Assembly (NCBI GenBank): GCA_944326605.1 | Contig: CALVEM010000013.1 | Location: forward strand, 1-58,583 | Reading direction: 5' to 3' | Origin: Candidatus Gastranaerophilales bacterium | GTDB taxonomy: Bacteria; Cyanobacteriota; Vampirovibrionia; Gastranaerophilales; Gastranaerophilaceae | Length of the DNA stretch: 58,583 nucleotides | Shown here: piece by piece, positions 19,129-51,707 of the stretch | How the letters are laid out: each line of letters starts with the position of its first letter | Numbering within the stretch: the first letter of the stretch is position 1 | Notes under the pieces: model-generated | Databases searched by the model: none | What the model saw: only the letters and a program-made list of their open reading frames with translations | Told to the model about the DNA's origin: nothing | Translations under genes and position numbers: made by a program

Positions 19129-21123
19129 CTATTTTATTTTTTCTTCAAGAACTTTTAGGCGTGCATCAAGTTTCTTATTGTCATTCTTAAGCTCTTTATT
19201 GTCATCCTGAACTTGTTTCAGGATCTCTGTCAATTGCTGGTTTTCTTTTTGCAGGGTCGTGACACGTGTATCGAGTTCCTTTATTGCATTTATCATTGCA
19301 AAGAACATATCCTCAAAACGGATTGTTAAAAAGCCGTCAACACCTTTTTTCACAGCGTCAGGAAAAACTTTTTGCAAATCCTGCGCTATTACACCAACGT
19401 GTGGTATTTTCTTTTCATCCTTTTTGAAGGTATAGTTGAATACTTTCAACTGACGAATTTTATCAAGACCGGCTGAACTTTCTTTGCCGACATATTTTAA
19501 GCGGCGGTCAGATGTATTATTAGTACCATCGACTGCTTTTACAAAACCTGTGACATCAAAACCGGCAACGCTTATTGTACCATATATTGAACCGCCGCGC
19601 ATAGCTTTACCACTAGAATCTGCTTTTGCATAAATAAACATATTTTTGCTACCATCGCCCTCTCGAAAATAAATCTTACTGTTAGGATTTCTATTTAATA
19701 AAACATGATTATCAACTACTAAATTACCGGGAATATATACCGTTGTATTTTCATCTCCGAGATAGATAATCTTATTTGAATTAGTTGCATTTGATGAACC
19801 GCTTGTTGGACCGGAATTTGCGCCTATACATACCTTATTATTACCTCTTGCATTTACACATGCATTACGACCTATAGCTATATTATCTGTTCCAACAGCA
19901 GTTGAAAAAAGACCAATTGCTATTGAATTAGTACCCGACGCACTTGATACCCTGCCTATAGCTATCGAATCATCTCCCGAAGCTTCTGCACTATTACCTA
20001 TCGCATTGGAATCTGCTCCGGAACCCACTGCATTATGACCTACAGCAGTGGAATTTCCTCCCATTGCTTCTGCCATATATCCGATAGCATTTGAAGCAGC
20101 TTCAGCTTTTGCTGCATAACCAATAACATTCGATGAATTACCAGCTTGCGTTTGATAGCCTATTGCATTAGCTCCACCGCCACTTGCCTGTGACTGGGGA
20201 CCTATTGCCGTTGATGTACCTGCTGTTGCTTTCGCACCTGTTCCTATTGCAGTTGAATTCTCCATTGAAGCTTCTGTATTTCCCCCAAGAGCTATGGACG
20301 AGGCGCCGGAGGCTAATGCTATATTACCGATTGCTGTCGAATTATTACCCGAGGCCTCGGCATTATTTCCAATTGCATTCGCGGATATTCCGCTTCCTAT
20401 TGAACTCGGGTCAAGAACATTCGAAAAATTACCAGAAGCCTCCGCACTATTTCCTATAGCATTGGAGGACTCTCCGCTTGCTGTTGAACTCGGTCCGATT
20501 GCGGTTGAGGCATTTCGAGTGGCACTCGAGCGTACTCCGATGGCATTGGAACTTGAACCCGAAGCGCTTGCGCCTGACCCGACTGCAGTTGCACCTGTAT
20601 TTGTTGCAGAGGAACTTGTCCCGATGGCGGTTGAATTACTCCCGCCGACACTTGTATTACGTCCGACTGCTACTGAATTCGTTACCAGATCTCCGCTCGA
20701 TAAACCGCCGATTAACAGGCCGCTATTCTTAAATTTAATACGACCTAAAACATTATCTCCCGTTTTAAACAATATATGATCTTTACCGTCAGGAGCATTG
20801 ATTACTAATCGCGAGGAGGTATCAGTATTGTCTGCTTCTTCCTGACCGATCATGGCTACCTGTGCATCGCCTAAGGCATAATATGCATCCGATCCGTTAC
20901 TTGCCCACTGCCAAGGTGAGGATTGGTCCAGCTTGTTTCTTGTTGTCATGACAGGGGCCATAGCCGCCATTACAATACTTAATATTAGCATTACAACCAT
21001 CATCTCGGCTAAAGTAAAAGCACATTTCTTTAGACGATAGGACGGTAAGACGTTAGGACGATAAGTTCGTTTCTCATAATTAATGTCATCCTGAACGTCG
21101 GATTGACCTCGGCGGCTCTGCAT
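19129..21123 (-). CDS. Locus A: pilin-anchored protein with YadA-like head repeats and S74 chaperone domain
   Basis: Counting from the ATG at 21123 (664 residues), a type IV prepilin-like motif (KKCA|FTLAEMMVVMLILSIV) sits at residues 32-51. A long region (about 130-420) of roughly 14-residue repeats rich in NSTAIG and EASG follows, typical of trimeric YadA-like head modules. The C terminus (from about 540) is a peptidase S74/intramolecular chaperone domain (NTSDRRLKYVGKE, IPHVGVIAQDLQKVFPDAV) ending in a coiled coil. In S74 proteins the chaperone helps trimer folding and often cleaves itself off; the candidate Ser is in TSDRRLK. The frame stays open upstream of 21123 through repeats to a ten-G tract at 21332-21341. 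The probable start, ATG 21377, is out of frame at the present tract length. An in-frame repeat palindrome lies in the coiled coil. Confidence 0.85.
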   Translation of the reverse strand: MQSRRGQSDVQDDINYEKRTYRPNVLPSYRLKKCAFTLAEMMVVMLILSIVMAAMAPVMTTRNKLDQSSPWQWASNGSDAYYALGDAQVAMIGQEEADNTDTSSRLVINAPDGKDHILFKTGDNVLGRIKFKNSGLLIGGLSSGDLVTNSVAVGRNTSVGGSNSTAIGTSSSATNTGATAVGSGASASGSSSNAIGVRSSATRNASTAIGPSSTASGESSNAIGNSAEASGNFSNVLDPSSIGSGISANAIGNNAEASGNNSTAIGNIALASGASSIALGGNTEASMENSTAIGTGAKATAGTSTAIGPQSQASGGGANAIGYQTQAGNSSNVIGYAAKAEAASNAIGYMAEAMGGNSTAVGHNAVGSGADSNAIGNSAEASGDDSIAIGRVSSASGTNSIAIGLFSTAVGTDNIAIGRNACVNARGNNKVCIGANSGPTSGSSNATNSNKIIYLGDENTTVYIPGNLVVDNHVLLNRNPNSKIYFREGDGSKNMFIYAKADSSGKAMRGGSIYGTISVAGFDVTGFVKAVDGTNNTSDRRLKYVGKESSAGLDKIRQLKVFNYTFKKDEKKIPHVGVIAQDLQKVFPDAVKKGVDGFLTIRFEDMFFAMINAIKELDTRVTTLQKENQQLTEILKQVQDDNKELKNDNKKLDARLKVLEEKIK
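19201..19229. repeat. Palindromic repeat inside the coding sequence of locus A
   Basis: GTCATCCTGA, ACTTG, TTTCAGGATC matches the dispersed palindromes found elsewhere in the window. Here it is read in frame as part of the C-terminal coiled coil (ILKQVQDD), so the element has been absorbed into protein sequence. Confidence 0.75.
21034..21065. repeat. Four-unit 8-bp repeat array (locus A, pilin-proximal)
   Basis: Units ACGATAGG, ACGGTAAG, ACGTTAGG and ACGATAAG are consecutive and are followed by TTCGTTTC. Locus C has an array at the same place with different units but the same design and the same TTCGTTTC flank. Confidence 0.85.
21085..21112. repeat. Dispersed repeat (GTCATCCTGAACGTCGGATT type)
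   Basis: This sequence recurs nearly unchanged in locus C (51148-51175) and inverted in the dnaE-tRNA gap (36316-36342). It is translated in frame in the pilin leader as GQSDVQDDIN. Confidence 0.75.
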
Positions 21124-21130
21124 CTCTTGA

Positions 21131-21155
21131 GATCCCGAAACAAGTTCGGGATGAC
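21131..21155. repeat. Dispersed palindrome (GATCCCGAAACAAGTTCGGG type)
   Basis: GATCCCGAA and TTCGGGATGAC form an inverted repeat in the locus A leader. In locus C the same two halves occur split by a roughly 55-base insertion (51232-51306). Confidence 0.75.
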
Positions 21156-21186
21156 AGATTGCTAATTTATTATTGATAACAGCTTC

Positions 21187-21218
21187 GCATCTTTGCCTCT
21201 TGACGTCTTTGCTTCCGG
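21187..21218. repeat. Four-unit 8-bp repeat array (locus A)
   Basis: Consecutive octamers GCATCTTT, GCCTCTTG, ACGTCTTT and GCTTCCGG. The consensus is GCNTCTTT with a diverged last unit ending in two purines, as in the other arrays. Confidence 0.8.
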
Positions 21219-21224
21219 TTAATA

Positions 21225-21249
21225 GATCCTGAAATAAATTCAGGATGAC
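21225..21249. repeat. Dispersed palindrome (GATCCTGAAATAAATTCAGG type)
   Basis: Identical in 25 bases to the copy in locus B (43758-43782) and nearly identical to that in locus C (51529-51553). In each pilin leader the minus strand reads it in frame as VILNLFQD. Confidence 0.9.
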
Positions 21250-21267
21250 ATGAATGATACTTGCTTT

Positions 21268-21317
21268 GCATCTATGCCTCTTAGCATCTTTGCTTCTAGC
21301 TGCGTCTTTGCCTCCGG
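21268..21317. repeat. 8-bp repeat array, six units (locus A, tract-proximal)
   Basis: Units GCATCTAT, GCCTCTTA, GCATCTTT and GCTTCTAG run consecutively, then after two bases come GCGTCTTT and GCCTCCGG. The array lies just pilin-side of the ten-G tract. Confidence 0.8.
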
Positions 21318-21323
21318 CGGAGC

Positions 21324-21377
21324 CTACAAAGCCCCCCCCCCGAAGCTCTCAAACCTTGTAATAACGTGTCTTTTCAT
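21324..21377 (-). other. Locus A start codon and short out-of-phase leader frame
   Basis: The ATG at 21377 follows GAAAGGA (21390-21384) with a six-base spacer, the usual Shine-Dalgarno arrangement. The frame reads MKRHVITRFESF, then glycines from the ten-G tract, and stops at TAG (21326-21324). Adding one G (or losing two) moves reading into the frame that is open all the way to the pilin motif. This is the likely true start of the locus A protein. Confidence 0.7.
21332..21341 (-). repeat. Ten-G homopolymer tract, locus A
   Basis: Ten G on the coding (minus) strand follow AGCTTC within codons 13-16 of the leader frame. Tracts of this length commonly change length during replication and switch reading frame. 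Confidence 0.9.
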
Positions 21378-21469
21378 GATCATTCCTTTCAAAAAAAATT
21401 GTAATCCTTTTTTACATTATAACAAATTAAATAAAAAACATCAACTCTGTTTTATGATATAATTGAAGC

Positions 21470-43071: not shown

Positions 43072-43872
43072 TTATCTCCAAGGATAGTCATCTTTTATCT
43101 GCCATCCGTCCACTTCTATTAATCTTGTACAGGCATGTTTGTGAAAACTTATTTTACAGTCATCCAAAAGCTCATCCCTTGTATACGTATGAAATCCCTT
43201 ATAAGATGATATGAATTTACCACCTTCTATTGAAAACAAAAAAGAATTTTTGCCATCAACTACTGAGTTCACTCCCTCATATTTATCTGAGCAACCTTTA
43301 GCTTCAGGACAAAATATAAAATGCATTGCTGTCCTATTAACAATAACACAAAACCCTGAACCATCAGCAAGACCATAACAAACATCGCTACCATTTTTGT
43401 AGGAAGATACAGTTTTAACTTCTTTGCCTAAATTCTGAATCCACCATTGCATGACCTTATTACTATTATGATCTAATTCTGCAAATCCGATATTAACATC
43501 CTCTGGCAAATAGCCGTTATCATTCTCCCATTTTGAAACGGCCTGAGACATTATAGAATAAAATTTTTGAAAACGTACTGTAGCCGTTCTTTTTTGATAA
43601 CTTTGCATCATTGCCGGCATTGTAAGAGATGCGACCACACCAATTATACCGAGGGTGATTAGAACTTCCGCAAGAGTAAATGCAGCTTTGGATTTCAGTG
43701 AAGGGTAAGCGTGAAGAGTTTTTTCAACTACCCTCCCTCGGGTGCGGGAATTATTGAGATCCTGAAATAAATTCAGGATGACGTAAATAGATCGTCTTCT
43801 TGACCTCCTGACTTCTTGCCCTCTAATTAGCCGAGGAGTGCCCCCCCCCCGAAGCTCCGAAAGTTTTTTCAA
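43072..43872 (-). CDS. Locus B: type IV pilin-like protein
   Basis: A prepilin motif (KAA|FTLAEVLITLGIIGVVA) is followed by a soluble domain with two Cys-rich patches and the C-terminal ending VDGWQIKDDYPWR shared by the other pilins in the window. It would be inserted in the membrane by its N-terminal helix and processed by a prepilin peptidase, then built into a pilus or pseudopilus. The in-frame start here is a TTG (43872) with no Shine-Dalgarno site. The likely start is ATG 43885, which is out of frame at the current ten-G tract. A 145-bp insertion separates the start region from the pilin. Confidence 0.85.
   Translation of the reverse strand: MKKLSELRGGGTPRLIRGQEVRRSRRRSIYVILNLFQDLNNSRTRGRVVEKTLHAYPSLKSKAAFTLAEVLITLGIIGVVASLTMPAMMQSYQKRTATVRFQKFYSIMSQAVSKWENDNGYLPEDVNIGFAELDHNSNKVMQWWIQNLGKEVKTVSSYKNGSDVCYGLADGSGFCVIVNRTAMHFIFCPEAKGCSDKYEGVNSVVDGKNSFLFSIEGGKFISSYKGFHTYTRDELLDDCKISFHKHACTRLIEVDGWQIKDDYPWR
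43758..43782. repeat. Dispersed palindrome in locus B leader
   Basis: A 25-base copy of the GATCCTGAAATAAATTCAGG type element identical to that at 21225-21249. The minus strand reads VILNLFQDL. Confidence 0.9.
43794..43825. repeat. Four-unit 8-bp repeat array (locus B)
   Basis: Consecutive octamers GTCTTCTT, GACCTCCT, GACTTCTT and GCCCTCTA. The locus C array at 51565-51596 differs by only three bases. Confidence 0.85.
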
Positions 43873-43885
43873 TTAATCTCTTCAT
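43823..43885 (-). other. Locus B start codon and short out-of-phase leader frame
   Basis: ATG 43885 follows AAAGGAG by five bases. The frame reads MKRLIEKTFGAS, glycines from the G tract, and stops at TAG (43825-43823). Nine or twelve G would put it in frame with the pilin. Confidence 0.7.
43841..43850 (-). repeat. Ten-G homopolymer tract, locus B
   Basis: Ten G on the coding strand follow AGCTTC. The flanking sequence (GCACTCCTCGGCTAATTAGA) matches locus C closely. Confidence 0.9.
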
Positions 43886-43944
43886 AACAACTCCTTTCTT
43901 TTTATATAGTTCATTATAACATCCAATGATTAAACCCGCAAGGG

Positions 43945-50452: not shown

Positions 50453-51439
50453 TTAAATTCTCTTCGGATAATCATTTGAAATCTTCCATCCGTCCATCAT
50501 TATTATTGTAGTGCACATATTAGCATTATCACGACATTTATCTATTAATTGTGTACGACTCAAACCTAACTCATACCCGTATGGCTGCAATCCCTTTTTA
50601 GGAGTAAAACGAAAAGTAAAATATTTTCTACCGCAGCAACTTCCATGATACTCTGCAGTATTAACCATACATTTATGTATGTCGGACGCATTCGGGAAAA
50701 AATACATATCAAAATTTGTTTCAGTAGTTTGTAAACCAAAACGCATTCCAAACGCACTGCCATCAGCTAATTTTATCCAGGTAGTATAATTGTTTTCTTC
50801 TAAAACTTCCATATCTTTAGATGTAAAAAATTCAGCTAAATATTTATTGAACCAATCTCCAGAACCTGATGGAGTAAATAAATCTGCATTATCCCAGTAT
50901 TCAATTTCACCATACTTATTTTCTGCAAGCAAAACTGCCTGATTAAAAGTAGTGTAAAACTTTTGTAATCGTGATGTAACGACCTGCTTTCTATGGTTTT
51001 CCAACAACGTAGGTATGGCTAACGCAGCAACTACGCCGATGATACCGAGGGTGATTAAAACCTCTGCTAGAGTAAACGCTGGGCGTTTACGAGGTAAATA
51101 AGTAAATAAGTGAATAGGTGAATAAGTTCGTTTCAGGAAAAGATTAATGTCATGCTGAACGTCGGATTGACCTCCGTGTTTCAGCATCTTATCTAAGGCA
51201 GGTTGACTTCCGGGTTTCTGTATCTCTTGAGATCCCGCACGCATTGGGACATTTTGCTCGAAATCATAGATTTCGGCAAAAGCAGTCAAACAAAGTTCGG
51301 GATGACGCCGCAAGTTGTCATTAACTCTGACTTTCAGCATCACATTTAATCCTTCTCCCCTTTGCGGGAAAAGGTGGCACATCATGCCGGATGAGGGGTG
51401 ACCCTCTCCCGCAGTTGTATGCTCACTTTGTTCACACAA
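50453..51439 (-). CDS. Locus C: type IV pilin-like protein with repeat-derived leader
   Basis: Counting from TTG 51439, about 120 residues of leader made of translated repeats precede the prepilin motif (KRPA|FTLAEVLITLGIIGVVA). A pilin soluble domain with several Cys pairs follows and ends in MMDGWKISNDYPKRI. The product would be a membrane pilin or pseudopilin. The frame continues open upstream of 51439 to the ten-G tract (51612-51621). The strongly supported start, ATG 51654 behind AAGGAGG, is one frame off at present tract length. Confidence 0.85.
   Translation of the reverse strand: MCEQSEHTTAGEGHPSSGMMCHLFPQRGEGLNVMLKVRVNDNLRRHPELCLTAFAEIYDFEQNVPMRAGSQEIQKPGSQPALDKMLKHGGQSDVQHDINLFLKRTYSPIHLFTYLPRKRPAFTLAEVLITLGIIGVVAALAIPTLLENHRKQVVTSRLQKFYTTFNQAVLLAENKYGEIEYWDNADLFTPSGSGDWFNKYLAEFFTSKDMEVLEENNYTTWIKLADGSAFGMRFGLQTTETNFDMYFFPNASDIHKCMVNTAEYHGSCCGRKYFTFRFTPKKGLQPYGYELGLSRTQLIDKCRDNANMCTTIIMMDGWKISNDYPKRI
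51095..51126. repeat. Four-unit 8-bp repeat array (locus C, pilin-proximal)
   Basis: TAAATAAG, TAAATAAG, TGAATAGG and TGAATAAG, then TTCGTTTC. This is the counterpart of 21034-21065 in locus A, with different unit sequence but the same number, length and flank. Confidence 0.85.
51148..51192. repeat. Dispersed repeat in locus C leader
   Basis: GTCATGCTGAACGTCGGATT matches the locus A copy (21085-21112), and TTTCAGCATCTTA provides the inverted arm. It is translated as part of LKHGGQSDVQHDIN. Confidence 0.75.
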
Positions 51440-51470
51440 CCGCTCCCTCTCCCAGAGGGAGAGGGAATTA
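51353..51470. repeat. GC-rich inverted repeats (CTCCCTCTCCCAGAGGGAGA type)
   Basis: Two stem-forming blocks (CTTCTCCCCTTTGCGGGAAAAG and TCCCTCTCCCAGAGGGAGAGGGA) lie in the leader and are translated in frame. A relative occurs between glyQ and the permease genes (57423-57456). Confidence 0.65.
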
Positions 51471-51490
51471 TTTTTTTCGATACTGGCTTT

Positions 51491-51522
51491 GCATCTATGC
51501 CTCTTTGCATCTTTGCCTCCAG
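51491..51522. repeat. Four-unit 8-bp repeat array (locus C, middle)
   Basis: GCATCTAT, GCCTCTTT, GCATCTTT and GCCTCCAG, of the same type as 21187-21218 and 21268-21299. Confidence 0.85.
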
Positions 51523-51528
51523 TTAAGA

Positions 51529-51553
51529 AATCCTGAAATAAATTCAGGATGAC
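51529..51553. repeat. Dispersed palindrome in locus C leader
   Basis: A copy of the TCCTGAAATAAATTCAGGAT element shared with loci A and B. Confidence 0.9.
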
Positions 51554-51564
51554 GGAAATAGATT

Positions 51565-51596
51565 GACTTCTTGACCTCCGGGCTTCTTGCCCTCTA
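51565..51596. repeat. Four-unit 8-bp repeat array (locus C, tract-proximal)
   Basis: GACTTCTT, GACCTCCG, GGCTTCTT and GCCCTCTA, nearly identical to the locus B array. Confidence 0.85.
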
Positions 51597-51597
51597 T

Positions 51598-51654
51598 TTA
51601 GCCAAGGAGTGCCCCCCCCCCGAAGCTCCGGAATTTTTTATTTAATCTTTTCAT
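51598..51654 (-). other. Locus C start codon and short out-of-phase leader frame
   Basis: ATG 51654 follows AAGGAGG (51667-51661) by six bases, the best ribosome site of the three loci. The frame reads MKRLNKKFRSF, glycines, ALLG and stops at TAA (51600-51598). One extra G restores the pilin frame. Confidence 0.75.
51612..51621 (-). repeat. Ten-G homopolymer tract, locus C
   Basis: Ten G on the coding strand after AGCTTC, as in loci A and B. Confidence 0.9.
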
Positions 51655-51707
51655 ATACAGCCTCCTTATGTAAATTTTCTGTTTTATAACATATTTTTTG
51701 CGGTCTG

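Follow-up and report, generated by a model that had tools for sequence, protein, structure and literature searches.

Many genes for type IV pilin-like proteins in a Candidatus Gastranaerophilales bacterium (GCA_944326605.1) carry a run of G or C, most often of exactly ten bases, inside the coding frame, and it is the length of this run that decides whether the start codon and the body of the gene are in the same frame. The run lengths are far beyond chance, and they differ between near-identical copies and between relatives with the body of the gene intact. Judged from the sequences, this is probably translational phase variation that extends over an entire pilin-like family, in which ten bases would be the common OFF length and one base more the ON length. 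The proteins are called pilin-like as predicted substrates of a prepilin peptidase, with both their cleavage and their assembly into filaments being predictions.

Three loci in the window (the whole stretch of 58,583 nucleotides that was analysed, positions 1 to 58,583 of contig CALVEM010000013.1) were the starting point, and their features are given in Table 1. As the original prediction described, each has an AAGGA-type Shine-Dalgarno site, ATG-AAR-AGA and then AGCTTC directly before ten G, with the frame of the ATG ending soon after the tract. A different frame is open from the end of the tract to the F of a prepilin motif, FTLAE, over 313 nt at locus A, 160 nt at locus B and 535 nt at locus C, close to the approximately 340, 160 and 560 nt first proposed. 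The changes that would join the two frames were also the same on rechecking, with +1 needed at A and C (11 or 8 G) and +2 at B (12 or 9 G). The odd shift of locus B originates upstream of its tract, as the region before AGCTTC reads GAAAAAACTTTCGG in B and GAAAACTTTCGG in the otherwise matching locus L022, giving B two extra A.

All three had been taken for pilin genes, which holds for two of them. Locus C reaches 16.5 bits against TIGR02532 (cut-off 16.3), indicating a prepilin motif and hydrophobic stretch, and B is also pilin-like with a score of 16.2, just under the same cut-off, whereas A joins a prepilin-type N-terminus (17.9 against PF07963, below the cut-off of 21.2) to YadA_head and Peptidase_S74 domains. 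Locus A (19129-21377, minus strand) apparently carries a trimeric-adhesin head, with YadA_head repeats and a Peptidase_S74 self-chaperone domain, on a pilin-like anchor, and an N-terminal DNA motif like its own is also found at G000 C2:31536, C2:50123, C6:205 and C7:7582.

Table 1. Features of the three starting loci, by position in the window
Feature	Positions	Strand	Basis
Locus C Shine-Dalgarno AAGGAGG	51661..51667	-	sequence
Locus C short frame MKRLNKKFRSFGGGALLG (predicted OFF product), ATG 51654, 0-frame stop TAA 51598-51600	51598..51654	-	
Locus C G10 tract, needs +1	51612..51621	-	
Locus C prepilin leader, pilin frame open, with dispersed repeats	51077..51611	-	
Locus C mature pilin-like protein beginning FTLAEVLITLGIIG, DUF6613, 207 aa	50453..51076	-	
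Locus B Shine-Dalgarno AAGGAG	43891..43896	-	sequence
Locus B short frame MKRLIEKTFGASGGGHSSAN (predicted OFF product), ATG 43885, 0-frame stop TAG 43823-43825	43823..43885	-	
Locus B G10 tract, needs +2, an unusual register	43841..43850	-	
Locus B prepilin leader, pilin frame open	43681..43840	-	
Locus B mature pilin-like protein of 202 aa, matching DUF6613 weakly	43072..43680	-	
Locus A Shine-Dalgarno AAGGA	21384..21388	-	sequence
Locus A short frame MKRHVITRFESFGGGAL (predicted OFF product), ATG 21377, 0-frame stop TAG 21324-21326	21324..21377	-	
Locus A G10 tract, needs +1	21332..21341	-	
Locus A prepilin leader, pilin frame open	21019..21331	-	
Locus A mature protein of 629 aa with prepilin-type N-terminus, YadA_head repeats and Peptidase_S74	19129..21018	-	

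Rather than the set of three that was predicted, the 2.05-Mb genome has 74 G/C runs of exactly ten bases with any flank, together with 10 of nine bases and 2 of eleven. Within the window G9 has 6 overlapping matches against 0.05 expected, and in the genome AGCTTC followed by at least eight G occurs at 26 sites, 23 of them with exactly 10 G. In a count that covered 848 kb, G/C runs of this genome fall from 1272 at four bases to 167 at five, 7 at six, 2 at seven and 1 at eight, then rise to 6 at nine and 45 at ten, with runs of more than ten absent from that 848 kb. The genome has 96 to 109 pilin-like genes depending on the pattern used; 60 were found in the 848 kb, and in 40 of these a G or C run of eight bases or more lies no further than 900 nt upstream. 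Summed across 33 congeneric genomes there are 58, 148, 1,621 and 150 runs of 8, 9, 10 and 11 bases respectively, exactly ten accounting for 82% of them. The original prediction had the three loci caught in the off state, and all three are indeed OFF in the present assembly, although this was too weak a statement, as 82% of runs at exactly ten make OFF the usual state across the genus.

Ten-base runs are largely restricted to this one genus, with almost none in the other families of the order, and in a sister genus (G033) some pilins have G12-G14. Two congeners have the genes and next to none of the runs, G022 with 120 pilins and three ten-base runs and G029 with 87 pilins and zero; their pilins (loci looked at: L237-L256 and the odd loci L257-L285) mostly have either an ordinary in-frame Shine-Dalgarno site and ATG near the prepilin motif or a longer leader. 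As these pilins start in the ordinary way without it, the run has been added to an otherwise normal gene family.

The relationship between tract length n and the insertion needed to restore frame was tabulated over 155 loci, de-duplicated and drawn from this genome and others. At n=10 one base is needed in 99 of 107 loci, hardly ever a loss of one, and at n=9 two bases are needed in 12 of 13, whilst the single locus with n=8 is in frame. Of the 26 loci with n=11, 17 are in frame, a share which is uninformative on the frequency of the ON state because this sample was fetched by length, the whole-genome counts applying instead. It is apparent from this table that the gene is built for 11 bases (modulo 3, so also 8 or 14) whatever its present length, and the rule is the same whether the coding strand has a G run or a C run and whichever of the three codon phases the tract begins in. 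The different shifts of A and C on one side and B on the other had been used as an argument against a programmed frameshift; this argument fails because B is an exception to an otherwise common +1. Pilins with G runs and with C runs (51606-51630, other tracts, L064) have common double-stranded flanks, TTC-G10-C[AG], for which a protein-level cause is unlikely as the G orientation encodes Gly and the C orientation Pro, with the DNA flanks still the same.

Coding constraint acts on the leader all the way from the prepilin site back to the tract, since the pilin frame is open and the other frames are full of stops. Within the 848 kb, 39 of 40 leaders (mean 286 nt) have no stop in the pilin frame between the tract and the prepilin motif. 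Over 3,819 leader codons that frame has 4 stops, which all belong to a single copy, and the other two frames have 314 and 246. This bears on the proposal that the short peptide is a leader ORF, with the pilin made from an internal start and the tract having another role. The form of the short ORF is conserved and its end usually lies a few codons past the tract, as such a proposal would have it, yet the leaders remain open back to the tract and just 7 of 155 tract pilins have a Shine-Dalgarno-preceded ATG in frame at most 40 codons from the cleavage site. Internal starts are thus rare, and this account is very improbable. The leaders consist in part of repeat-like sequence, which may be tolerable if the prepilin peptidase removes the leader; VILNLFQD and KDAKRHRCKAS, read as protein, recur in them (51077-51611 and others) and resemble intergenic elements inserted in coding frames.

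Length variation is visible in the DNA itself. C-run modules of this genome have either C9 or C10, their upstream flanks agreeing at 24 of 24 bases and their downstream flanks at 37 of 40, and in-frame copies are present in the same genome with 11 G (L018, L218) and 16 G (L022). Comparison of tract length across related genomes had been suggested as a check, and related pilins of different species do differ: pairs with mature parts 76-88% identical differ in tract state, one having G8 in frame against G10 and another C11 in frame against C10, and further pairs have G9 against G10, C9 against C10 and even a G run against a C run. A second assembly of the same species was sought among the genome contigs, where only three loci of other MAGs matched. 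The claim that the loci are phase-variable gains support from these length alleles, from the in-frame copies and from the downstream frame being kept, with the three loci themselves all OFF.

Simple phase variation does not account for the uniform +1, as runs of 9 and 11 bases occur equally often in the genus (148 vs 150), and because this uniformity is what a programmed site would give, programmed recoding stays a serious rival, even if an unlikely one. By this account the RNA polymerase adds one base at a slippery G10 or C10, or the ribosome shifts by -1, and the ten-base gene yields a small, constant proportion of full-length prepilin with the DNA unchanged. A single direction of shift would be its natural consequence, the shift is the same at 99 of the 107 ten-base loci, across all three codon phases and both run types, there is coding constraint on both sides of the run, and both an X XXX XXX slippery heptamer and the long homopolymer that transcriptional slippage requires are present. 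However, the shift that is constant at 10 is different at 9 and 11, where the alleles keep the same downstream register and not the same shift, so that eleven-base copies are simply in frame. Moreover, the homopolymers are G10 and C10, whereas A/T runs are the usual substrate of known bacterial transcriptional slippage (PMC3711429). Downstream RNA structure as a stimulator of frameshifting was rejected, with the mean folding z close to zero at 61 G-run (-0.02) and 16 C-run loci (+0.41). That G10/C10 in either orientation acts as a family-wide recoding element, with its length tuning the output of dozens of pilin-like genes per genome, is rather doubtful; were it so, recoding would occur on G/C rather than A/T runs, in what would be, to our knowledge, the largest programmed-frameshift gene set in one bacterium.

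It could also be argued that the pattern is an artefact of sequencing or assembly, the real tracts having 11 bases and all genes being intact, an error that the original prediction allowed for. At 11 every pilin would be intact, and sequencing is difficult at G-runs (PMC9187656). The same run is nevertheless carried by non-pilin genes that read straight through at 10, for an AAA ATPase, two family-2 and one family-8 glycosyltransferases, a radical-SAM protein and one unassigned protein, with a Pfam domain spanning the tract in the AAA ATPase and in one of the glycosyltransferases. Because these genes would break at 11, the ten-base runs are not under-called elevens; the same assembly also has runs of 9, 11, 12 and 16, which together with the intact non-pilin genes led to the rejection of a homopolymer miscount, and many independent genomes have the same pattern. 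An artefact is therefore very improbable. The non-pilin genes with the run (L062 at G000 C3:13884, L061, L066, and on G000 C2 and C5) are by default ON at 10; the pilins are by default OFF.

The G/C run just after the start codon lies in the N-terminal leader that the prepilin peptidase should remove, and since the tract sits in this removed leader the added Gly or Pro would leave the mature protein unchanged. At a length of 10 the start and the pilin are one base out of frame and translation would stop a few codons on, whilst at 11 (or 8, or 14) the start is fused in frame to the pilin. If phase variation is the explanation, replication slippage is the probable source of the length changes, and switching would be reversible in living populations, with the majority of these pilins off in most cells and an occasional +1 slip switching on a single member to give a varied surface. 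The uniform +1 could be due to a quick reversion of longer ON tracts. If the genome is a MAG like its relatives, its consensus would give the commonest tract length, which could sharpen the peak at 10. Loss of MutS as a cause is ruled out, as MutS was found in 54 of 58 relatives, this genome among them, and with MutS present the runs need not be hypermutable. Like the peak at 10, which is sharper than that of the poly-G runs of Campylobacter, this counts against phase variation.

This type of switch is already known. In Bifidobacterium breve a G-tract is an ON/OFF switch of two sortase pili with the frame logic proven, and as here a gut commensal has G10/G11 in a pilus gene that was recorded OFF and in which one base fuses the frames, although there it concerns one or two loci per genome, Gram-positive sortase pili and a tract outside a prepilin leader (PMC9187656). 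Unlike B. breve, the present genome has dozens of such pilin-like genes with one common register. The opa family of Neisseria has far fewer genes than the set here, and we know of no common off register in it. It is similarly a multigene surface family with members each switched by a leader-region repeat, but the repeats are CTCTT pentamers and the products outer-membrane proteins (PMC3960869). Campylobacter genomes also have many poly-G runs, mostly in coding frames, but these belong to mixed gene families, have lengths of 9 and 10 (52% G9, 30% G10, a less sharp peak than that at 10 here) and in one set have an ON share near the neutral expectation (PMC6321876). In contrast, the runs here belong mainly to a single family; 82% have exactly 10 bases, and almost all are OFF. 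Frameshifts at homopolymers, in that case A/T runs, were reportedly found by Wernegreen et al. in 2010 to be rescued by transcriptional slippage. There, too, a homopolymer that seems to shift the frame has intact gene sequence before and after it, whereas the runs here are of G/C and have length alleles by which the frame is restored at the DNA level.

In the literature searched, no paper was found that links Gastranaerophilales with phase variation, nor any description of a switch family of comparable scale or uniformity, and in the available text of a paper on a termite-gut relative pilin genes are listed without such switches among them (PMC5877343). As far as could be found, the scale, the uniform register, the restriction to a single family and the lineage are new. 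If this reading is right, dozens of genes per 2-Mb genome would form one switched surface family, nearly all by default OFF in the same register, in a lineage of uncultured gut Cyanobacteriota that are non-photosynthetic. Gene callers would then truncate or mis-start most of these pilins, and the pilins are predicted to be diverse from cell to cell, a diversity that should be readable from deep metagenomic or long reads.
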